The position numbers were made by a program, and so were the translations under genes. Under the pieces are notes generated by a model. That model was not told the origin of the DNA. It saw only the letters and a program-made list of their open reading frames with translations, and did not search any database. A stretch of 64,000 bases of DNA from Altererythrobacter sp. H2 (lineage in GTDB: Bacteria > Pseudomonadota > Alphaproteobacteria > Sphingomonadales > Sphingomonadaceae): the NCBI RefSeq assembly GCF_035319885.1, contig NZ_CP141285.1, positions 1,240,001 to 1,304,000 on the forward strand, written 5' to 3'. Position 1 is the first letter of the stretch, and the number at the start of each line of letters is the position of its first letter. This document shows positions 3,677 through 53,120 of this stretch, in pieces.

Positions 3677-5937
3677 AGTCCCTCGGATATCAGGGGCAGA
3701 CGGCGAAACCGCAAGCCGGTGGCGGAATAAAGAGCGTTGGCGATGGCCGGGGCGGCAACCGTCACACCCAGTTCACCGGGATCGAACGGTTCTGCCTCGC
3801 TGGCGATGAACTCGACTAGCACTTCCGGACAGTCCTGCAAGCGTGGGAGGGCGAGAGAGCCGAGCCGCTGGCTGGTTGGCAATCCATCCCGATAGCTTGT
3901 GGACGCCCCGACGGCGAGCGATAGCCCGAACACCAGCCCGCCTTCGATCTGCTGGCGGGCCAGCTCGATATTGACGATCCGGCCGATGTCCACCGCAGCG
4001 GTCAGCCGGGTCACGCGCACGCCGCCTTCGCCTGCGCGGGCCGTGGCGATGCAGGCAATTCGCCCCCCCGTGGCGCTGTCGCCCATGCGGTGGCAGGCGA
4101 GCCCCTGGCCGCTCTGGTCACGGCCGGCATCCCACTGCGCCAGACGGGCGGCGCTTTGCAGGCAGGTGACCATGCGCGGATCATCGCCCAGCATGGCTAT
4201 GCGATAGGACAGCGGCTCTCGCTGATAGCGGCTGGCGATTTCGTCGATGAAGCTCTCGGTGAAGAATGCCGTCACCGCATCGGCTCCGCCGCGCATCCGC
4301 CCGGTCGGCAGATGCACCGTGGCGGGTACGTGATCGACCGCCACGTTGGCGATGGCATAGGGCGGTAGCGCGCCTTCAACGGCAAAGGGGTCCGCCTCGC
4401 CGCGGGCGTCGTCAACTGCGGCCCAGGTGGTCCGGTTGGCAAACAGCCGTGCACCCCATTCGCGCGCGGTGGCGGGCATCGCAATCCGGGCGCGCCAGTC
4501 GGCAATCGTGCCATCACCGCTCAGTTTGGCCGAGAGCAGCGCCTTCGCCGGGGCACGCGGCCGGCCAGCCAGCATTTCCTGCCAGCGAGACCAGACCAGT
4601 TGCACCGGCTGCGGCGAGCATTCGCGTGCCAGCAATGCCGCCTCGATCGCGTGATCGTGTTCCAGCCGCCGGTCGAAACTGCCCCCGGCCGGCATGGGAT
4701 AGAGCACCACGTCATCGAGCGAGAGGCCAAGGGCCTCGGCCGCTGCGACCCGTGCCCGTTCCGGTGCCTGGCTGGCCAGCCACAGTTCCAGCCTGCCGTC
4801 CACCAGCCGCGCGGTGGCGCTGGCGGTTTCGGGCGTGGCATGGACCGCCGGGGCGACTTCGTAGCGCAAGGTCAGGCTCGGCTCCCCCATCGCGGTGTCG
4901 CCTTCGCCGCGGGTGGCGATCCGGACTGCGTTCCCTTCCGTCAAGGCGGTTTCGAGCGCGGCGTCGATCCGGTCGCCGTCGAGCGGCCCGGTTACCTGGA
5001 AACGCGGCGCCATGGCGTCCAGCGCCTGCTCGGCCGCCCACCAGTTGCTGGCCACGGCCGCCAGCCAGCGTTTGCCGTTGACCAGCCGGACCAGTCCCGG
5101 CGTGCGCACCGCTTCGAAGTCGGTCAGTTCGGCCTGGGGCAGGGGGCCATGGCGGATCGCGGCATAGACCATGTCGGGCAGGCGCACGTCGCCCGCGAAC
5201 AGGAAAGTGCCATCGACCTTGGCCGGGCCATCCAGCCGGGGAAAGGCGGTCGGCTGCTCCGCTTCCCCCGCCAGCGGTACTTCGCGCGGCGGTTCGGTGC
5301 GGAGCGGCGGCGGATCGGGGGGTTCGAAGCCCGCCGCCGCTTCGGCCAGTTCGGCAAAGCTGAGTTGCTCTGCGCCAAGCGTCACGAAACCGTCCGCGGC
5401 GCTGCATTCTTCCCAGCGCGCGCCCCACCGTTCAGCGGCGGCCATGCACAGGACGGCCCGCGCACTGGCAGCGGCGGCGCGGCATTCGGATTCGTAGGCC
5501 GAAAGCGTGGTCCCCGCAGCGGTAGCGGTGAAGCGGCTGACCTGGGCGAACCGGGCCGCAAGCAGGTCGTCATCGGCCAGCGCCGGGAAAAACGGCATCC
5601 ACAGCGGTGCCCACCGCCGCGCCAGCGGGACGTTGGCATAAGCGCCGCTGACCGGGGCCGGCTCGACCGCCACCTGGCGCCAGTCCGCCCCAAGTTCCAT
5701 CGCGACAATCTGCGGGATCAGGGTGGTGACGCCCTGGCCCATCTCCAGCTGGGGCACGGCCACCGTGACCACCCCGTCGCGCGCGATCTTGAGCCAGGCG
5801 CCAAAGGCGTATTCCCCCTCCACCGGTGTGAGCGGGGTTGAATAGGTGCGCGGCATCAGCCCCCAGGCAACCAGCAGGCCGCCGCCAACGGCAGCGCCAA
5901 CCAGCACGCCCCGGCGGCTGACCCTCAGGTCAGCCAT
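3673..5937 (-). CDS. Tat-exported xanthine dehydrogenase-family molybdopterin-binding subunit (IorB-like)
   Basis: About 754 residues from the ATG at 5937, which gives a short N-terminus with a twin-arginine signal (RVSRRGVLVG followed by a hydrophobic stretch). This start overlaps the mrp stop by 8 bp. The protein matches the large subunit of isoquinoline 1-oxidoreductase-type Mo hydroxylases: LEMGQGVTTL, AGGSFDRRLEHD, TAFFTESFIDE and a C-terminal GELGVTVAAPAIANAL with the catalytic Glu. These enzymes normally pair with a small two-[2Fe-2S] subunit and a cytochrome; neither is encoded nearby. The substrate is unknown. The family call is firm, the isoquinoline activity is not implied. Confidence 0.88.
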   Translation of the reverse strand: MADLRVSRRGVLVGAAVGGGLLVAWGLMPRTYSTPLTPVEGEYAFGAWLKIARDGVVTVAVPQLEMGQGVTTLIPQIVAMELGADWRQVAVEPAPVSGAYANVPLARRWAPLWMPFFPALADDDLLAARFAQVSRFTATAAGTTLSAYESECRAAAASARAVLCMAAAERWGARWEECSAADGFVTLGAEQLSFAELAEAAAGFEPPDPPPLRTEPPREVPLAGEAEQPTAFPRLDGPAKVDGTFLFAGDVRLPDMVYAAIRHGPLPQAELTDFEAVRTPGLVRLVNGKRWLAAVASNWWAAEQALDAMAPRFQVTGPLDGDRIDAALETALTEGNAVRIATRGEGDTAMGEPSLTLRYEVAPAVHATPETASATARLVDGRLELWLASQAPERARVAAAEALGLSLDDVVLYPMPAGGSFDRRLEHDHAIEAALLARECSPQPVQLVWSRWQEMLAGRPRAPAKALLSAKLSGDGTIADWRARIAMPATAREWGARLFANRTTWAAVDDARGEADPFAVEGALPPYAIANVAVDHVPATVHLPTGRMRGGADAVTAFFTESFIDEIASRYQREPLSYRIAMLGDDPRMVTCLQSAARLAQWDAGRDQSGQGLACHRMGDSATGGRIACIATARAGEGGVRVTRLTAAVDIGRIVNIELARQQIEGGLVFGLSLAVGASTSYRDGLPTSQRLGSLALPRLQDCPEVLVEFIASEAEPFDPGELGVTVAAPAIANALYSATGLRFRRLPLISEGL

Positions 5938-6895
5938 GCGCGCCCTTGAGCGAGGCCAGCATCCGTTCGGCAATCGCTCGGAACGCATCCGCTTCCGGCC
6001 CTTCACCCGCAGCAGGGGGCGTTCCTGCATCACCTGCTTCACGAATGGCGATGGTCAGCGGAATCCGACCAAGGAACGGCAGGGAAAGCGCCTGTGCCGC
6101 ACTTTCGACGCCGCCCTGTCCGAACGGGTCGCTCACTTCGCCGCAGTGGGGGCAGGCATATCCGGCCATGTTTTCGACCAGCCCGAGAATCGGCACCCCG
6201 CCGGTCTCGAACAGCTGCATCGCGCGGCGCGCATCGATCAGTGCCAAATCCTGCGGAGTGGAAACGATCACCGCGCCGGCCGGCTTATGCTTCTGCAACA
6301 TGGAGAGCTGCACGTCGCCCGTCCCCGGGGGGAGGTCGACGAGGATGAACTCGGCGTCGCCCCAGTGCGCGTCGATCAGCTGCCCAAGCGCATTGCCCGC
6401 CATCGGGCCGCGCCAGGCCAGCGCCTTGCCCGCTTCGACCAGGTGCCCCATCGAAAGCACCGGCACACCCCAGCGGCTCGAAACCGGGACCAGCTTTTCG
6501 TCGTGCGCCACGGGGCGTTCGCCGACATTGCCAAGGATGGTCGGCTGCGACGGGCCGTAGATATCGGCATCGACCAGCCCGACCTTGTGGCCGAGGCGGG
6601 TGAGCGCCACCGCCAGGTTGGCCGTCAGCGTCGACTTGCCGACCCCGCCCTTGCCCGAGCCGACCGCGATGATGGTGCGGCTTGGCCGGTCGGCCATCAT
6701 GGCCACGCGGACTTCCTCCACCCCCGGCTGGGTCGTCAGCAGGTCCTTCACCGCAGCTTCCAGCCCGTCCCGCGCGTCGGGCGTCAGGCCGGTGGCATCA
6801 AGTACGGCAATCACGCGGCCGCCGGTCTGCTTGAGCGACTTTACCCGCGCTTCGATAGAGGCGGGCAACTGCTGTCTCAGGGGGTTGTCGTCCAT
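5930..6895 (-). CDS. apbC: Mrp/ApbC family iron-sulfur cluster carrier ATPase
   Basis: P-loop ATPase of 321 residues that carries and delivers Fe-S clusters. An N-terminal MIP18/DUF59-like region (residues about 1-85) precedes the deviant Walker A GSGKGGVGKST. Also visible are LVDADIYGPSQP, the LVDLPPGTGD motif, and the paired cysteines YACPHCGE that bind the bridging cluster. The ATG at 6895 is divergent from hflK, 75 bp away. It leads a row with the Mo hydroxylase and hemH. The Mo hydroxylase family needs Fe-S clusters, so the context fits cofactor supply. Confidence 0.94.
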   Translation of the reverse strand: MDDNPLRQQLPASIEARVKSLKQTGGRVIAVLDATGLTPDARDGLEAAVKDLLTTQPGVEEVRVAMMADRPSRTIIAVGSGKGGVGKSTLTANLAVALTRLGHKVGLVDADIYGPSQPTILGNVGERPVAHDEKLVPVSSRWGVPVLSMGHLVEAGKALAWRGPMAGNALGQLIDAHWGDAEFILVDLPPGTGDVQLSMLQKHKPAGAVIVSTPQDLALIDARRAMQLFETGGVPILGLVENMAGYACPHCGEVSDPFGQGGVESAAQALSLPFLGRIPLTIAIREAGDAGTPPAAGEGPEADAFRAIAERMLASLKGAHG

Positions 6896-6970
6896 GGCGA
6901 GGGCTCCCTAGCACCAATTTCCCGCCTGCCACCCCTGTTTTTCCGCCAATCGCCACCTATAAGGGAACGC

Positions 6971-8152
6971 ATGGATATGTTGGACGGTTTGAGAAAACGT
7001 TTCGGGGTAGCGATGGCTGGCAAGAGCCCGTGGGGCGGTAGCTCCGGCGGCGGCTCTGATGGACAGGGGCCCGGTGGCGAGGGCGGCGATTCCGGTTCCG
7101 GCCCCGCTACAGGCGGCGACAAGAAGGGGCCACGCAACCCCTGGCTCCCCGGTGGTGGGGACGGCCCGCGCCGGTCCGCCAATATCGAGGACATCTTCAA
7201 GAACCGTGGTCCTGAAGGTCCGCGCCGCACCGGCGGCCCGCGGGGCCCCAACTTCAATCTGCCCCGTCGCCCCGGTGGCGGCAGCTGGTTGCCTGTTCTG
7301 GTCGTCGGGATCGTCTCGGTCGGCCTGCTGGTATCGATGGCGCATCAGATCGCTCCGCGGGAACAGGCCATCGTCACCTGGCTCGGCGGAAAATACAGCC
7401 ACACGCTGGAACCGGGTTTCAACATCACCATGCCCTATCCGATCCACCAGGTGGACCGGGAAGACGTGCGCGAGATCCGGCTGGAGCGGATTCCGGAAGG
7501 GACCGAGCAGAAGCTGATCCTGACCGGTGACCAGAACCTCGCCAACGTGTCCTACATCATCCGCTGGAACATCAAGGACCTGCGCCTGTTCCGTTTCCAG
7601 CTCGACGATCCGCTGACCACGATCAAGGATGTCGCCGAATCCGCCATGCGCGCGGCCGTGGCGGAAAAGACCCTTGACCAGACTTTTTCTGGCGCTGGCC
7701 GTGCCGATATCGAGGAACGGGTGATGCGCCGGATGCAGGCGCTGCTCGATGCCTATCGGTCGGGCGTGACCATCCAGGGGGTCGACATCAACAAGACCGA
7801 CCCGCCGGGCGAAGTGCTCGATGCCTTCCGTGACGTTTCGGTGGCTGAACAGGATGCCAATGCGGCGATGAACCGTTCGCGCGCCACGGCCCAGCGCATC
7901 CTTTCGCAGGCCGAGGGTGAAACCGAAGCCTTCGACAAGGTCTACGAACAGTACCGCCTTGCTCCCGAGGTCACCCGCCAGCGCCTCTATTACGAAACCA
8001 TGGAGCGGGTGCTGCGCGAAACCGACAAGACCGTGGTCGAGACTGGCGGGGTGACGACCTATCTGCCGCTGCCCGAAATCCGCAAGCGCGCGCAGGAGCG
8101 GCCGGCAGCCGCCGCAGCCGCGCCCACGCCCACACCGGCAAGGGAGCAGTAA
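6971..8152 (+). CDS. hflK: FtsH protease activity modulator HflK
   Basis: SPFH/prohibitin-domain membrane protein that, with HflC, cages the FtsH protease in the inner membrane. Length is 393 residues. The first 105 residues are Gly/Pro/Arg-rich and low in complexity, then comes one transmembrane segment at about 107-124 and the band-7 domain. The C-terminus is an Ala/Pro tail. The ATG at 6971 follows an AAGGGAA ribosome-binding site. The stop is 3 bp before the hflC start, which fits the obligatory HflK-HflC pair. Confidence 0.95.
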   Translation: MDMLDGLRKRFGVAMAGKSPWGGSSGGGSDGQGPGGEGGDSGSGPATGGDKKGPRNPWLPGGGDGPRRSANIEDIFKNRGPEGPRRTGGPRGPNFNLPRRPGGGSWLPVLVVGIVSVGLLVSMAHQIAPREQAIVTWLGGKYSHTLEPGFNITMPYPIHQVDREDVREIRLERIPEGTEQKLILTGDQNLANVSYIIRWNIKDLRLFRFQLDDPLTTIKDVAESAMRAAVAEKTLDQTFSGAGRADIEERVMRRMQALLDAYRSGVTIQGVDINKTDPPGEVLDAFRDVSVAEQDANAAMNRSRATAQRILSQAEGETEAFDKVYEQYRLAPEVTRQRLYYETMERVLRETDKTVVETGGVTTYLPLPEIRKRAQERPAAAAAAPTPTPAREQ

Positions 8153-48757: not shown

Positions 48758-51052
48758 TCAGTCTGCCAGCGTGATGAAGCTGTCGATCACCCGCTTGGTG
48801 CCGGCTTGCTCAAACGCTATTTCCAGCTTGTTGCCTTCCTGATCGACCACGGTGCCATAACCGAACTTATCGTGGAACACGCGGCTGCCGACTGCGACAT
48901 CGGTGCGGGCCTTGGCAGCAAAGCTGGCCGCGCTGCGGCGGCTCTCCTCCACCCGCGCCGGGCGGCTGTCATAGCCGGTGGCGAGGGCCCGCTGCCAGCC
49001 GGGCCCGCGGGTGTTGCCGCGATCCGGGCGAGCCTGGCTGACATGGGCGAACGGGTCGTCGGTCTCGCTCCAGTTGGCGCGCCACAGGGAGGCGCCTCCG
49101 GTCAGCGTGGTTTCCTGCTCGATATGCTCGTCGGGCAGTTCTTCGATGAAGCGGCTCGGGATCGAGCTGGTCCACTGGCCGTAAATGCGGCGGTTGGCGG
49201 CATGGAACACGGTGCAGTGCCGCCGGGCGCGGGTGAGGGCAACGTAGGCAAGGCGCCGCTCTTCCTCCAGTGAGGCAAGCCCGCCTTCGTCCAGCGCACG
49301 CTGGCTGGGAAACACGCCTTCTTCCCATCCGGGCAGGAAGACGTTGTCGAATTCCAGCCCCTTGGCCGCATGCATGGTCATGATGGTGACCTTCTCGGCG
49401 TCGTTCGCGGCCTCGTTGTCCATCACCAGCGCGACATGTTCGAGGAAATCGCCGAGCGTATCATAGTCCTCCATCGCGCGGGCAAGCTCGGACAGGTTTT
49501 CGATCCGCCCCTTGGCTTCAGCAGTTCTTTCCGCCTCCAGCATGGCGAGATAGCCGCAATCGTCGAGCACCTGGCGCATAAGCTCCGCCGGGCTGGTCTG
49601 CTTGGCCAGTTCGCGCCAGTGCAGGAACTGGCCAAGCAGCCCGGCAATCGTGTTCCCGGCGCGGGCAGGCAATTCGTCGCTGTCAGCCAGTTGCAGGGCA
49701 GCGGCGGCAAGGGGCAAGCCGGTGCGCCGGGCGTGCTGGTGCATCTTCTCCAGCGTCTTGGCGCCAAGGCCGCGCTTGGGCTGGTTGTGGATCCGCTCGA
49801 ACGCCAGATCGTCTTGCGGCTGGGCGATGACGCGCAAATAGGCGAGTGCATCGCGGATTTCCGCTCGCTCGTAGAACCGGAAACCGCCGACGATCTTGTA
49901 GCCCAGGCCAATCTGGATGAAGCGGTCCTCGAACTCGCGGGTCTGATACTGGGCGCGCACGAGGATCGCCACCTGGTCCAGCGCCGCGCCTTCGCGTTCC
50001 AGCCGCTCGATCTCTTCGCCCACCCGGCGGGCTTCCTCCGGCCCGTCCCACACACCGATCACGCGCACCTTGTCGCCGCCATTGACTTCGGTCCACAGGG
50101 TCTTGTCGTGGCGCTGGCTGTTGGCGCGGATCAGCCCGCTGGCGGCCGCAAGAATGTGCGGGGTGGAGCGATAGTTCTGCTCCAGCTTGATCACCGCCGC
50201 GCCCGGAAAATCCTTCTCGAAGCGCAGAATGTTGGCGACTTCCGCCCCGCGCCAGGAATAGATCGACTGGTCGTCATCCCCGACCACGCAGATGTTCTTG
50301 CGCTCCTGCGCCAGCAGCCGCAGCCACAGGTACTGGACCTGGTTGGTGTCCTGGTATTCGTCAACCAGGATGTACTTGAAGCGTTGCTGGTAGATCTCCA
50401 GCACCTCGCGGTGGGTGCGGAACACGTTGAGCATGTGCAGCAGCAGATCGCCGAAATCGCACGCATTCAACGCCTTCAGCCGGTCCTGATAGAGCTGATA
50501 GAACTGTGCCCCGCGCCCATTGGCATAGGCTTCGTTCTCCACCGCATCGAGATCGCCGGGGTTGAGCCCGCGATTCTTCCAGCGATCGATCAGACCGGCC
50601 AGCTGGCGCGCGGGCCAGCGCTTCTCGTCGAGGTCGTTCTGCTGGATCAGCTGCTTGAGCAGCCGTAACTGGTCGTCGGTATCGATGATGGTGTAGTTCG
50701 ACTGAAGCCCGACCAGCTCGGCATGGCGGCGCAGCATCTTCGCCCCGATCGAATGGAACGTGCCGAGCCAGGGCATTCCTTCCACCGCGTCACCAATGTG
50801 CTGACCAACCCGGTGGCGCATCTCGCGCGCGGCCTTGTTGGTGAAAGTGACGCAGAGGATCTCGCTCGGCCAGGCGCGCCGGGTGGCGACGAGATGGGCG
50901 AGGCGCGCAGTCAGCGCCGCCGTCTTCCCGGTCCCTGCCCCGGCCAGCATCAGCACCGGCCCTTCGGTGGTCAGCACCGCCTGCTGCTGTGGCGGGTTCA
51001 GCCGCGCGGCATAAGGGGGCACGGGGGCGACAGGAGGGGATTCGGATTGCAT
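48758..51052 (-). CDS. uvrD: UvrD/PcrA-family DNA helicase
   Basis: Superfamily 1A 3'-5' helicase for repair and replication, 764 residues from the ATG at 51052. All motifs are visible: Q motif LNPPQQQAVL, Walker A AGAGTGKT, VTFTNKAAREM, Walker B DEYQDTN, motif III VGDDDQSIYSWRGA, motif V TMHAAKGLEFDNVF and motif VI VALTRARR. The C-terminal tail has VGSRVFHDKFGYGTVVD, typical of PcrA/UvrD tails that contact RNA polymerase. The call between UvrD and PcrA is a naming matter. Confidence 0.96.
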   Translation of the reverse strand: MQSESPPVAPVPPYAARLNPPQQQAVLTTEGPVLMLAGAGTGKTAALTARLAHLVATRRAWPSEILCVTFTNKAAREMRHRVGQHIGDAVEGMPWLGTFHSIGAKMLRRHAELVGLQSNYTIIDTDDQLRLLKQLIQQNDLDEKRWPARQLAGLIDRWKNRGLNPGDLDAVENEAYANGRGAQFYQLYQDRLKALNACDFGDLLLHMLNVFRTHREVLEIYQQRFKYILVDEYQDTNQVQYLWLRLLAQERKNICVVGDDDQSIYSWRGAEVANILRFEKDFPGAAVIKLEQNYRSTPHILAAASGLIRANSQRHDKTLWTEVNGGDKVRVIGVWDGPEEARRVGEEIERLEREGAALDQVAILVRAQYQTREFEDRFIQIGLGYKIVGGFRFYERAEIRDALAYLRVIAQPQDDLAFERIHNQPKRGLGAKTLEKMHQHARRTGLPLAAAALQLADSDELPARAGNTIAGLLGQFLHWRELAKQTSPAELMRQVLDDCGYLAMLEAERTAEAKGRIENLSELARAMEDYDTLGDFLEHVALVMDNEAANDAEKVTIMTMHAAKGLEFDNVFLPGWEEGVFPSQRALDEGGLASLEEERRLAYVALTRARRHCTVFHAANRRIYGQWTSSIPSRFIEELPDEHIEQETTLTGGASLWRANWSETDDPFAHVSQARPDRGNTRGPGWQRALATGYDSRPARVEESRRSAASFAAKARTDVAVGSRVFHDKFGYGTVVDQEGNKLEIAFEQAGTKRVIDSFITLAD

Positions 51053-51278
51053 GGTTGCGTGAACAGCTAGGGAACATCGGCCTGAACCGCAAGCAAGCCC
51101 GGGTTCGGCTTTTCCGGAGGCCGGTTCGCTCCGTCGCGAAAAGGGCACACGGTCCGCCCGGTCCTGCATCCGGCAAGCCCAATCGCCGCCGGGGTAGCTT
51201 GCCTGCGTGGCTTGATGCCCTCACACCCCGTCCGGGTCGCGTTCGTCACGCATGGTTCAATCGTCAAAGGAGCATACC

Positions 51279-51677
51279 ATGCGGTACCCCACACTATTTG
51301 TCATTTCCGGTCTTGTTGCCCTGTTCGCCGTTCCTGCCGCTGCGCAAGACCATCACGGATCGGACCCGGCGGCTCACGGCAGCGCGCCAGCTTCGGAGGC
51401 ACCCCACAACAGCGCCCATGAGACTGACGAAGCCGATATGGCCGGGCGGCCGGCAGAGCGGAAAGCGGAATTTGCCGCCTGGCCCCAGCCAATCCGGGAT
51501 TACTTCCAGACCCTGCCGGAAAATCGCCGTGCGCTCTTCTGGGGGCTGCCCGACAGCGACAAGCAGGCGCTTAGCATGATGGCCGAACCCGAACGCGCCG
51601 CCGCCTGGCAACAGGTTGAGCAGCGGTTTGCCGCCCAGAACGAGCAGGCCGCGCCGGTGGAAGATCCGCAGAGCTGA
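51279..51677 (+). CDS. Small periplasmic protein, paralog 1 of a tandem pair
   Basis: 132 residues. A signal peptide (RYPTLFVISGLVALFAVPAAAQ) is followed by a His/Ala/Ser-rich linker and one helical domain of about 55 residues from EFAAWPQPIRDYFQTL to WQQVEQRF. Trp, Tyr/Phe and Arg positions are spaced as in the next gene; a 50-residue ungapped alignment shows 14 identities. The mature protein has no Cys. AAAGGAG precedes the ATG. No known family comes to mind; the downstream hairpin separates the two genes. Confidence 0.8.
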   Translation: MRYPTLFVISGLVALFAVPAAAQDHHGSDPAAHGSAPASEAPHNSAHETDEADMAGRPAERKAEFAAWPQPIRDYFQTLPENRRALFWGLPDSDKQALSMMAEPERAAAWQQVEQRFAAQNEQAAPVEDPQS

Positions 51678-51689
51678 TCCACCTGACTG

Positions 51690-51735
51690 GGGCGGCAAGG
51701 CGCGCGTTTCACGGTTCGCCTTGCCGCCCTTCTTG
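51690..51735 (+). terminator. Strong hairpin after paralog 1
   Basis: A 13-bp perfect stem, GGGCGGCAAGGCG with CGCCTTGCCGCCC, closes a 14-base loop at 51690-51729 and is followed by TTCTT. It looks like an intrinsic terminator with a weak T tract. Confidence 0.75.
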
Positions 51736-51850
51736 CCCGATCCATCCCGGATTCTCCATCCGGTTGCCTAACTTAGGTTGGTCTGGGGGGAACAAGCCGG
51801 CGGCTGGCCGGGTTGCGACCGAAACAACAGGGCTAACGTAGGAGACCATC

Positions 51851-52513
51851 ATGAACAAAGTGACGTTTGCCGCAGCGATCGCGCTGGCCACTGCCCTGCC
51901 ATTGTCCGCTCAGGATTCTGCCATGCCTGACAGGCCCTCAACGGCGGGCCAGGCTGCCTCGACGATGAGCGCCGAGCAGCAACGCGATTTTGACAGCTGG
52001 CCCCCGGACCGGCGAAGCCGGTATGAAGCCTGGCCCGAAAATACCCGTACCTATTACTGGACGCTTGACGCCGATCAGCAGCGCGGCTGGTGGCTGCTTA
52101 ATGATGATCAGCGCATGCGGATCATGGCCATGACTCCGGAGCAGCAGGCGCAGACCTGGGCCTCGATCAACCAGCAGTTGCAGGGCACCGCCCCGCCGCC
52201 CGCAGCCCCGCCGCCAGCCAATCCGGGCATGACCCCGCCTGATGGCGCAATGCCTCCGCCTGCCCAGTCGAGGAGCCAGGCACCTATGACCGGGTCGACC
52301 CCGGGCGCCATGGGCGACACCACGAGTCCTGCCACCGCACCTGCGACGGCAGCGGCGCGCAGCACTGCGGTGCGCAATATGGCTGGCAATCCCGGCTCCG
52401 TGCGCTGGACCGACAACACCGTGATGCAGCAGGTCCCGCCGCCGCCCCAGGGCGAATACCCGGTGTGTACAGCCACCCGCCGCGACAGCTGCCGCAACCC
52501 CGGCGGTCAGTGA
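51851..52513 (+). CDS. Small periplasmic protein, paralog 2 of a tandem pair, with Pro-rich tail
   Basis: 220 residues. A signal peptide (MNKVTFAAAIALATALPLSAQ) is followed at about residues 40-105 by the domain shared with the upstream gene: DFDSWPPDRRSRYEAWPENT, YYWTLDADQQRGWW and MTPEQQAQTW. Aromatic residues are enriched. The rest is a long Pro/Ala/Met-rich low-complexity tail ending with two Cys in CTATRRDSCRN. The shared domain argues for tandem duplication followed by tail gain. The function is unknown. Confidence 0.8.
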   Translation: MNKVTFAAAIALATALPLSAQDSAMPDRPSTAGQAASTMSAEQQRDFDSWPPDRRSRYEAWPENTRTYYWTLDADQQRGWWLLNDDQRMRIMAMTPEQQAQTWASINQQLQGTAPPPAAPPPANPGMTPPDGAMPPPAQSRSQAPMTGSTPGAMGDTTSPATAPATAAARSTAVRNMAGNPGSVRWTDNTVMQQVPPPPQGEYPVCTATRRDSCRNPGGQ

Positions 52514-52521
52514 GTGAGAGC

Positions 52522-52546
52522 GGGCCGGACCGTGGAAGTCCGGCCC
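52522..52546. terminator. Hairpin between converging genes
   Basis: GGGCCGGAC and GTCCGGCCC form a perfect 9-bp stem around a 7-base loop, between paralog 2 and the converging rsmD. It has no T tract on the plus strand. Confidence 0.55.
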
Positions 52547-52568
52547 ACCTGTCCTGTCAGGCTGAAGG

Positions 52569-53120
52569 TCAGATTTCTCCGGCTACCCTGGCAAACCACA
52601 GCTTGGCCTTGCCCACCTTGCGCTCCGCTTCGATCGTGAAGCCTTTGACGTCGACCGTTTCACTGGCACCGGTTTCCAGCGCTACCCAGCTGGCCGGGCC
52701 AATCCATCCGAGCCGGTGCAACCGGTCGAGGGCTACCGCGCCTGCGCCGGTGCCGTAGGGCGGGTCGAGCAGGATAAGGTCAAAAGGCGCTTTGGCGGCA
52801 GGCAGGGCAAGCACCGATCCGGCGCGCACTTCGCTGCGGTCACGTGCGCCGAGGGCGGCGATATTTGCCCTGATTGCGTTCAGGGCTTCGCTATCCTGTT
52901 CCACGAACAGGCAATGCGCCGCCCCGCGGCTGAGCGCTTCCAGCCCGAGTGCACCTGACCCTGCAAACAGATCGGCCACCTTCAGACCATCGAATGCGCC
53001 GAGGCGGCTGGTCAGCATGTTGAACAGCGTCTCGCGGGTGCGATCAGCGGTCGGCCGGGTCAATTCACCCTTGGGGGCGCGGAGCTTGCGCCCGCGCCAG
53101 TCCCCTGAAACCACTCTCAT
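52569..53120 (-). CDS. rsmD: 16S rRNA (guanine-966-N2)-methyltransferase RsmD
   Basis: 183 residues. The SAM fold shows KVADLFAGSGALGLEALSRGA, and the catalytic motif IV is LILLDPPYG. It begins RVVSGDWRGRKLRAP and TADRTRETLFNML, which are diagnostic of RsmD. It is 23 bp downstream of the pseudouridine synthase gene and probably co-transcribed, so two ribosomal RNA modifiers share a unit. Confidence 0.95.
   Translation of the reverse strand: MRVVSGDWRGRKLRAPKGELTRPTADRTRETLFNMLTSRLGAFDGLKVADLFAGSGALGLEALSRGAAHCLFVEQDSEALNAIRANIAALGARDRSEVRAGSVLALPAAKAPFDLILLDPPYGTGAGAVALDRLHRLGWIGPASWVALETGASETVDVKGFTIEAERKVGKAKLWFARVAGEI

Follow-up and report, generated by a model that had tools for sequence, protein, structure and literature searches.

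Background

Genes under the PhyR-NepR-EcfG general stress response of sphingomonads carry a promoter that is described as GGAAC-N16-CGTT in Sphingopyxis granuli, with TGTT, CATT and GGTT as variants of the second (-10) box (PMC7083833), and as GGAAC-N17-20-GTT in Sphingomonas melonis (PMC6599016). Many known EcfG targets of sphingomonads are unannotated proteins (PMC7083833, PMC6599016), and only 37% of the direct general-stress-response genes of S. granuli have a predicted function (PMC7083833). Here, we describe two neighbouring genes of Altererythrobacter sp. H2, termed P1 and P2, which lie at positions 51279-52513 of a 64-kb stretch of contig NZ_CP141285.1 (the window, by which we mean all 64,000 nucleotides analysed). 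Both encode predicted exported proteins with a domain of 11-residue repeats, and P2 is preceded by a promoter of the EcfG type. The reading that we favour, with a probability of roughly 0.5, is that P1 and P2 represent a sphingomonad family of exported helical-repeat proteins in which one class (A, with P2) is driven by EcfG, the other (B, with P1) responds to a separate signal, and the repeats bind their partners in protection of the cell envelope. The flanking genes are ones that we take, by family, to be the helicase gene pcrA/uvrD and an rsmD-like methyltransferase gene.

Among described proteins, several invite comparison. The LTXXQ proteins (PF07813), such as Spy and CpxP, are small, exported, helical and linked to stress, and the Spy fold consists of long helices. 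DUF3106 (PF11304) comprises proteobacterial proteins with repeated W/L..LSPEQR segments. LEA proteins and apolipoproteins contain 11-mer repeats, which in the LEA type form a continuous amphipathic helix without helix breakers. P1 and P2 resemble the LTXXQ proteins in the same general features and in (L/M)(T/S)PEQ-like segments, but are predicted to have short helices at a pitch of 11 residues. They are comparable to DUF3106 in having repeated segments and share the 11-residue unit with LEA proteins and apolipoproteins, whereas their units are bounded by Pro/Thr/Asp, with predicted helix breaks.

An array of 11-residue repeats shared by P1 and P2

A first-pass annotation of the window had reported the two open reading frames (ORFs) and 14 identities in their best ungapped 50-residue window, including A1, W2, P3, R7, Y9, W22 and W44, and both observations hold. 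The identity count is weak by itself, being reached by 10 of 500 shuffles. A similarity-scored local alignment of P1 and P2 reaches 105 against a best shuffle of 80 (n = 5000), and because this score lies above all 5000 shuffles the two blocks are judged homologous, such that P1 and P2 share, by sequence comparison, one homologous domain; the annotation had allowed that the blocks might prove unrelated. What had to be given up is the 50-residue block as the unit, as it belongs to a longer array in which six units of 11 residues follow one another in tandem. In a lag analysis of 57 class A and 26 class B proteins, the window genes included (together the discovery set; the classes are defined below), identities at lag 11 were 2.57 times (A) and 2.08 times (B) the shuffled expectation, the strongest of lags 1-20. 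The units of P2 read AEQQRDFDSWP, PDRRSRYEAWP, ENTRTYYWTLD, ADQQRGWWLLN, DDQRMRIMAMT and PEQQAQTWASI, and P1 aligns with them unit for unit.

Conservation by unit position was read from the 54 ungapped domains among 70 non-redundant ones. The Tyr and Leu of unit 3 and the Trp of unit 6 are invariant (54/54). Gln/Arg predominate at positions 3-4 and aromatic residues at position 7, where unit 5 has Leu/Val/Ile and unit 6 has Ala; position 10 is Trp, Leu, Met or Ile in nearly all of units 1-5. In 80% of the domains Pro occupies the boundary of unit 1, and in 70% that of unit 2. At a threshold of 4 bits, the scored repeat chains comprise 3-11 units, against a maximum of 2 in shuffled proteins, with six units scored in 39 of the 57 class A and 16 of the 26 class B proteins. 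In a class A protein of 11 units (L098, 4501-5283; designations beginning with L and G are those of our analysis), part of the array is still a 33-nucleotide (nt) DNA tandem repeat with 75% matches.

AlphaFold2 models of both proteins give six short helices. In the P2 model these begin at model residues 21, 32, 43, 54, 65 and 76, all five steps being 11 residues, with a predicted local distance difference test score (pLDDT) of 81-90 by block over the repeat domain and low confidence over the long tail. In the P1 model they begin at residues 20, 36, 47, 58, 69 and 80; four of the five steps are 11 residues, and the block pLDDT ranges from 84 to 91 for model residues 31-90, with about 61 in unit 1. 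Each unit is predicted to form one short helix plus a Pro/Thr/Asp turn.

The unit length also invites another explanation, in which amphipathic 11-mers punctuated by Pro would bind lipid (such as the glycosphingolipid outer membrane of sphingomonads) or fold on drying, as in apolipoproteins or LEA proteins, and would form no globular solenoid. The many Trp/Tyr residues at unit positions 7, 8 and 10, the Pro residues that mark most unit 1 and unit 2 boundaries, and the low-complexity Pro/Ala/Thr linkers would fit such a role. We nevertheless consider it unlikely: in the models, where pLDDT mostly exceeds 80, the helix is interrupted at every unit, and the invariant aromatic and Leu/Met positions suit a packed core better than a lipid face. 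We prefer a compact helical solenoid.

Two classes and the cysteine tail

The proteins fall into two classes by their cysteines, counted after residue 18. Class A has exactly two, spaced C-x7-C, in 102/102 proteins (57/57 in the discovery set and 45 from later genomes), whereas class B has none beyond the signal peptide region in 61/61 (26/26 and 35). In P2 they are residues 206 and 214, with no others. The two C-terminal cysteines that the first-pass annotation had pointed out in P2 are present, but they are the defining mark of class A instead of an oddity. Its His-rich linker of P1 fared differently: P1 does have 5 His, but the mature parts of the remaining 25 discovery-set class B proteins contain 0 to 2 each, and the linker is therefore peculiar to P1 and not a class feature. 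The two genes are distinguished by the cysteine tail and the promoter class, not by the His linker.

The C-x7-C spacing also holds in 71/71 proteins when the 14 tail-only proteins of the discovery set are counted with class A. The discovery classes were labelled by script and then corrected by eye for six proteins, including P1. Because they were first formed partly on the tail, the later set of 68 genomes is the fairer test; sorted by cysteine alone, its 80 domain proteins comprise 45 with two cysteines at C-x7-C and 35 with none, with no intermediate pattern, although many of these genomes come from few genera and the set is not independent. One or two cysteines lie within the uncounted first 18 residues of six of the 26 discovery class B proteins, and one later class B protein (L252), which has no convincing start, was used in a reading with Cys13, before the counted part.

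A tree of the repeat columns supports the division. All 21 class B rows lie on one side of one branch (ultrafast bootstrap 99; Shimodaira-Hasegawa-like approximate likelihood ratio test, SH-aLRT, 96). The class-splitting branch occurs in 98% of bootstrap trees, and none of 500 label shuffles was as clean. The tree holds 69 of the 83 domain proteins after an 80% redundancy cut and length cuts, and its 75 columns are few for 69 rows. It places P1 and P2 in two ancient classes, as ancient paralogues. The description of the genes as tandem paralogs is right in that they are homologous neighbours, but a recent tandem duplication was rejected: the repeat tree splits the classes, and of 142 loci with repeats 81 contain only class A, 40 only class B and 21 both.

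The tail is a module in its own right. Tail-only proteins, which are predicted to be exported and carry C-x7-C, stand beside the repeat gene or replace it at the locus and have at least two different N-terminal parts (L043, L044, L045, L047, L050, L088, L091, L093, L096, L117, L118, L120 and L122). At E 0.01, a tail profile matched 17 of 59 genomes, our own included. Of these matches, L154-L164 and L171 are flanked by pcrA and/or rsmD, and the weaker matches L165-L170, L172 and L173 have none of the three tested neighbours. A general C-terminal sorting tag was considered and rejected, as the tail profile matches only one place, P2, in its own genome. In class A, the tail may be closed by a disulfide and serve as a docking or stabilising loop. 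Conservation of the cysteine pair in every class A protein would also suit a redox sensor or a thiol-active site with no structural disulfide, which we think improbable: searches of 28 tails against Pfam and NCBIfam returned no redox family, the only Pfam match being a weak one to DUF3089 in two tails.

His at position 3 of the mature N-terminus is a pattern like the amino-terminal Cu(II)- and Ni(II)-binding (ATCUN) motif. It is predicted in 12/57 class A proteins, 1/26 class B proteins (P1) and 2/14 tail-only proteins. Along with the Met- or His-rich linkers of some members, it could be taken to indicate metal-binding or metal-buffering envelope proteins. Such a function is distinctly improbable, as most members lack the His, P1 alone of the 26 class B proteins has more than two His, the cleavage sites are heuristic and related genomes share ancestry. 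Metal stress, to which the first-pass annotation had looked, received no particular support; the regulatory signal found is of the general-stress-response type. As a separate observation, predicted mature starts of D-H-H, D-D-H or D-N-H are common in class A (L043, L053, L060, L063, L066 and others), and that of P1 is Q-D-H.

Distribution and the pcrA-rsmD locus

A first profile, made from P1, P2 and three relatives, matched at least 80 of 298 genomes of the window's family in 34 of 96 genera, with six of the 80 matched by the tail only. With an improved repeat profile, at least 106 of the 396 genomes sampled across the order matched, every one of them from the window's own family, and at least 1 of 385 genomes across the class, namely the window's own. 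These counts are lower bounds because only the best candidates per genome were scored. They agree with the earlier suggestion of a sphingomonad family, here of probable envelope proteins, in that the predicted exported proteins are restricted to the lineage. Within the whole genome (3.24 Mb), the domain profile finds only the P1 and P2 places up to E 10, and a single-sequence search with P2 gave one further weak match, aligned to its linker part (L003). This and other weak single-sequence matches (L008, inside a histidine-kinase-like ORF; L009, with three stops; L012) were not counted, and two loci were dropped before the counts (L102, a class A gene that contains an N and changes frame; L121, a long ORF of G242 with a weak tail match, unplaced).

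The genomic position is strongly conserved. In the discovery set, 80 of the 83 domain proteins are encoded between pcrA/uvrD and rsmD, antiparallel to rsmD; the three exceptions are L064 and L073, which are second copies elsewhere, and L078, whose fetched stretch showed no rsmD. All 80 domain proteins of the later set lie in the interval in the same orientation. Of the 14 tail-only proteins of the discovery set, 13 are encoded in the interval. Where both classes occur, class A comes first, adjoining pcrA, at 20 of the 21 loci, and only the window has class B first. For 30 genomes with no credible repeat match in the first search, the rsmD locus was obtained in 29; a tail protein was found there in G001 and G017 with the first profile, and the tail profile added G014 and G016. 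G001 belongs to the window's genus, and in its interval (L123, 1143-1421) the repeat gene is replaced by one for a small C-x7-C tail protein, predicted to be exported and lacking repeats, so the content of the locus changes quickly. At one locus (L096, 4102-5740), one gene each of class A, class B and the tail-only kind stand in a row between pcrA and rsmD. The species-genome scan returned one named record, a metagenome-assembled genome (MAG) labelled Erythrobacter sp. 34-65-8, which has both genes, its P2 being 98% identical.

Upstream elements and regulation

The upstream regions are split by class as well. In what follows, paired fractions give the discovery set and then the later set. GGAAC occurs 40-110 nt upstream of class A genes in 57/57 (shuffles 5.4) and 42/45 (shuffles 4.7), and of class B genes in 3/26 and 3/35. 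The fuller motif GGAAC-N15-18-NGT[TA] precedes 82 of the 102 class A genes (51/57 and 31/45; shuffles 0.7 and 0.5), and none of the 61 class B genes (0/26 and 0/35). The GGAAC-type promoter of class A lies mostly about 60 nt before the start codon. For seven later proteins lacking an acceptable ATG, re-reading with TTG/GTG starts raised the class A counts from 38 to 42 for GGAAC and from 26 to 31 for the full motif, of 45.

Class B genes have an element of their own, containing GTTCGT, in 53 of 61 cases (24/26 and 29/35; shuffles 0.4 and 0.7), which is found in 2/57 and 4/45 class A genes. In the discovery set, it lies 32-52 nt before the class B start. When the element was sought in its own genome with up to two mismatches, 50 matches were obtained vs 47 for the reversed control, and no regulon emerged; among the 49 other copies, 7 were inspected with their flanks, and in none did a gene convincingly start after the element. 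As for the class B regulator, the CenR motif (TGA-N8-TGA) was considered and set aside, the relevant paper reporting no CenKR homologue in Sphingomonadales (PMC9275681).

From these elements, it seems that the general stress response turns on class A and that a different signal turns on class B. The host encodes NepR (model over the cut-off), and GGAAC-N16-CGTT sites stand before nepR and before a nearby ORF that we take to be PhyR-like; another ORF near nepR is presumably EcfG-like. With its GGAAC-N16-17-NGTT type promoter and this host background, P2, and class A with it, resembles the EcfG regulon genes of sphingomonads, but differs from them in that its class B paralogues lack the promoter. 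In the 64-kb window, both strands together contain four matches to GGAAC-N16-17 with an EcfG box, one of which is the P2 promoter. The other three, at 6964 and 7566 (+) and 7592 (-), lie inside a long open frame (5846-8152) and are perhaps chance. This frame contains what we take to be an hflK-like protein, and the match at 6964 is near the likely hflK start.

In most loci the GGAAC element sits between pcrA and the class A gene, and it could in principle be the promoter of the divergent pcrA/uvrD instead. This is scarcely credible. In the window, P1 lies between pcrA and P2, and P2 still keeps the element. At 40 loci a lone class B gene occupies the interval, and no class B gene has the full motif. 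Further, the class A copies L064 and L073 have no pcrA in their flanks and carry GGAAC upstream nonetheless. We assign the element to class A.

Relation to known families and folds

Searches of Pfam and NCBIfam gave no credible match for P1, P2, the domains of 42 relatives or 28 tails, in keeping with the first-pass annotation, which knew of no family for the domain. The best Pfam match of P2 is DUF4125 (E 0.053; 13.6 bits vs a cut-off of 25), which is also matched by one of the 42 domains. PF11304 (DUF3106) is absent from the Pfam matches of the 42 domains at E up to 1, a search in which HMMER filters drop weak matches. A Foldseek search of the PDB with the P2 model returned four matches, none at E 0.001, a missing match being no proof of a new fold, and a search of BFVD with the P1 model returned 41, none at E 0.001. 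When the models were re-examined against the Foldseek candidates, the best Z for P2 was 4.5, to the P22 scaffold C-loop (root-mean-square deviation 4.0, 87 aligned; 24 chains), and that for P1 was 2.6 (12 chains). Searches of phages (query P2) and plasmids (query a relative from G005) gave no match. The family is apparently undescribed so far: a literature search found no description of it in titles or abstract openings, which is no proof of absence from print.

The LTXXQ family deserves separate mention, as P1 and P2 could be divergent members of this group of periplasmic chaperones. Among the weak Pfam matches, those to PF07813 are the commonest (9 of the 42 relatives' domains, best E 1.7e-4), and the sole match of the domain profile among PDB sequences is Spy (E 0.36). 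We regard membership as very improbable all the same. P1 and P2 have no PF07813 match up to E 10, the best match of P2 being the sub-threshold one to DUF4125, and profile-profile comparison with LTXXQ proteins of related genomes (hhalign) gave a probability of 2% over 8 columns, the LTXXQ side consisting of three sequences, two of them nearly identical. Further, an LTXXQ protein over the cut-off is present in 3 of 30 relatives, and two of these, G005 and G007, also carry the repeat family, on other contigs.

Proposed function and the points that weigh against it

In the mechanism that we favour, P1 and P2 would be secreted by Sec, and their repeats would fold in the periplasm. Class A would be made when the PhyR-NepR-EcfG general stress response is on, and class B under another signal. 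The repeat surface may then bind unfolded envelope proteins or envelope lipids, and the cell envelope would in this way be protected under stress. The family, its repeats, the cysteine rule, the synteny and the promoter split come from the computation itself; export and periplasmic location, the tail disulfide, EcfG control and the protective role are what we infer. For the activity itself, holdase-like binding is our tentative first choice, ahead of lipid binding and then metal or redox functions. One may further speculate, with considerable doubt, that the domain is an undescribed miniature helical solenoid, with a 9-residue helix per 11-residue unit and growth by in-frame duplication, and a stress-induced envelope chaperone or scaffold peculiar to sphingolipid-bearing Gram-negatives, and that after an ancient duplication one copy kept EcfG control and the disulfide tail, the second copy losing its tail and coming under another regulator.

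Various observations weigh against this reading and are gathered here, together with the limited independence of the later set. Export is predicted by a permissive heuristic (a hydrophobic start plus an AxA-like site) that every domain protein in the discovery set passes (57/57 in class A, 26/26 in class B) and that had no negative control. Only three units of P1 pass the repeat profile, the other three resting on the alignment with P2, and the AlphaFold2 models were made from input alignments of four sequences (window and MAG copies), with predicted template modelling scores (pTM) of 0.37 and 0.56. On the regulatory side, 14 of the 45 later class A genes have no NGT[TA] box, the strict CGTT box is found in only 16/57 and 5/45 class A genes, and the promoter of P2 itself is a variant with GGTT; the widest pattern (CGTN, NGTT or CATT) covers 54/57 and 35/45 class A genes and also takes in one class B gene (1/26 and 0/35). 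As many as 290 of the 396 genomes of the order have no match, and the family is therefore dispensable in the lineage. Between the window and the MAG copy (L013), the ratio of nonsynonymous to synonymous substitution rates (dN/dS) is 0.46 for P1, from 10 differences, whereas the value for P2, 0.13 from 17, speaks for our reading; both values rest on small numbers of differences, and the adjacent rsmD has none. Further, residue 57 of P1 (51447-51449), in unit 1, is Arg in the window and Trp in the MAG copy, Trp being found there in 96% of the 54 ungapped domains; P1 may be under weak constraint. Finally, the choice of a holdase-like activity is made by analogy.

Features of the locus

The features are collected in Table 1. 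As the first-pass annotation had stated, each gene has its own ribosome-binding site, of the GGAG type, and a stable hairpin behind it; no terminator with a T-tract came out of a scan of 51000-52700.

Table 1. Positions of P1, P2, their associated elements and the flanking genes in the window
Feature	Position	Strand	Basis
P1, 132 residues, class B member (repeats, no cysteine)	51279..51677	+	ORF; class B side of repeat tree
P1 signal peptide (predicted), residues 1-22; mature protein predicted to begin QDHHGS	51279..51344	+	permissive heuristic
P1 repeat domain, residues 48-113, six 11-residue units	51420..51617	+	alignment with P2; AlphaFold2 helices
Conserved element GTCGCGTTCGTCACGCATGG 5' of class B genes; GTTCGT starts 38 nt before the P1 ATG	51236..51255	+	
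P1 ribosome-binding site AAAGGAG	51266..51272	+	sequence
Hairpin 3' of P1, -33.6 kcal/mol, z -3.4, without T-tract	51689..51730	+	
EcfG-type promoter of P2, GGAAC-N17-GGTT, 62 nt before ATG	51789..51814	+	
P2 ribosome-binding site TAGGAG	51839..51844	+	sequence
P2, 220 residues, class A member (repeats and C-x7-C tail)	51851..52513	+	ORF; class A side of repeat tree
P2 signal peptide (predicted), residues 1-20; mature protein predicted to begin QDSAMP	51851..51910	+	permissive heuristic
P2 repeat domain, residues 41-106, six 11-residue units	51971..52168	+	repeat profile; AlphaFold2 helices
P2 C-terminal tail module, Cys206 and Cys214 (C-x7-C)	52400..52510	+	
Hairpin 3' of P2, between P2 and convergent rsmD; fold of 52510-52560, -23.9 kcal/mol, z -3.1	52522..52546	+	
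pcrA/uvrD helicase gene, divergent flank; true start possibly further inside	48758..51169	-	presumed from family
rsmD-like methyltransferase gene, convergent flank	52569..53120	-	presumed from family

Significance

P1 and P2 belong to a new lineage-restricted family of exported helical-repeat proteins, probably linked to stress. An 11-residue helical unit of variable copy number offers a simple model for the growth of repeat proteins. For the biology of sphingomonads, the family provides a concrete object of study, namely a conserved syntenic gene with a promoter of the general-stress type, clear modules and a natural paralogue that lacks this promoter. Through this family, envelope effects of the general stress response of the sphingomonad type would become testable.

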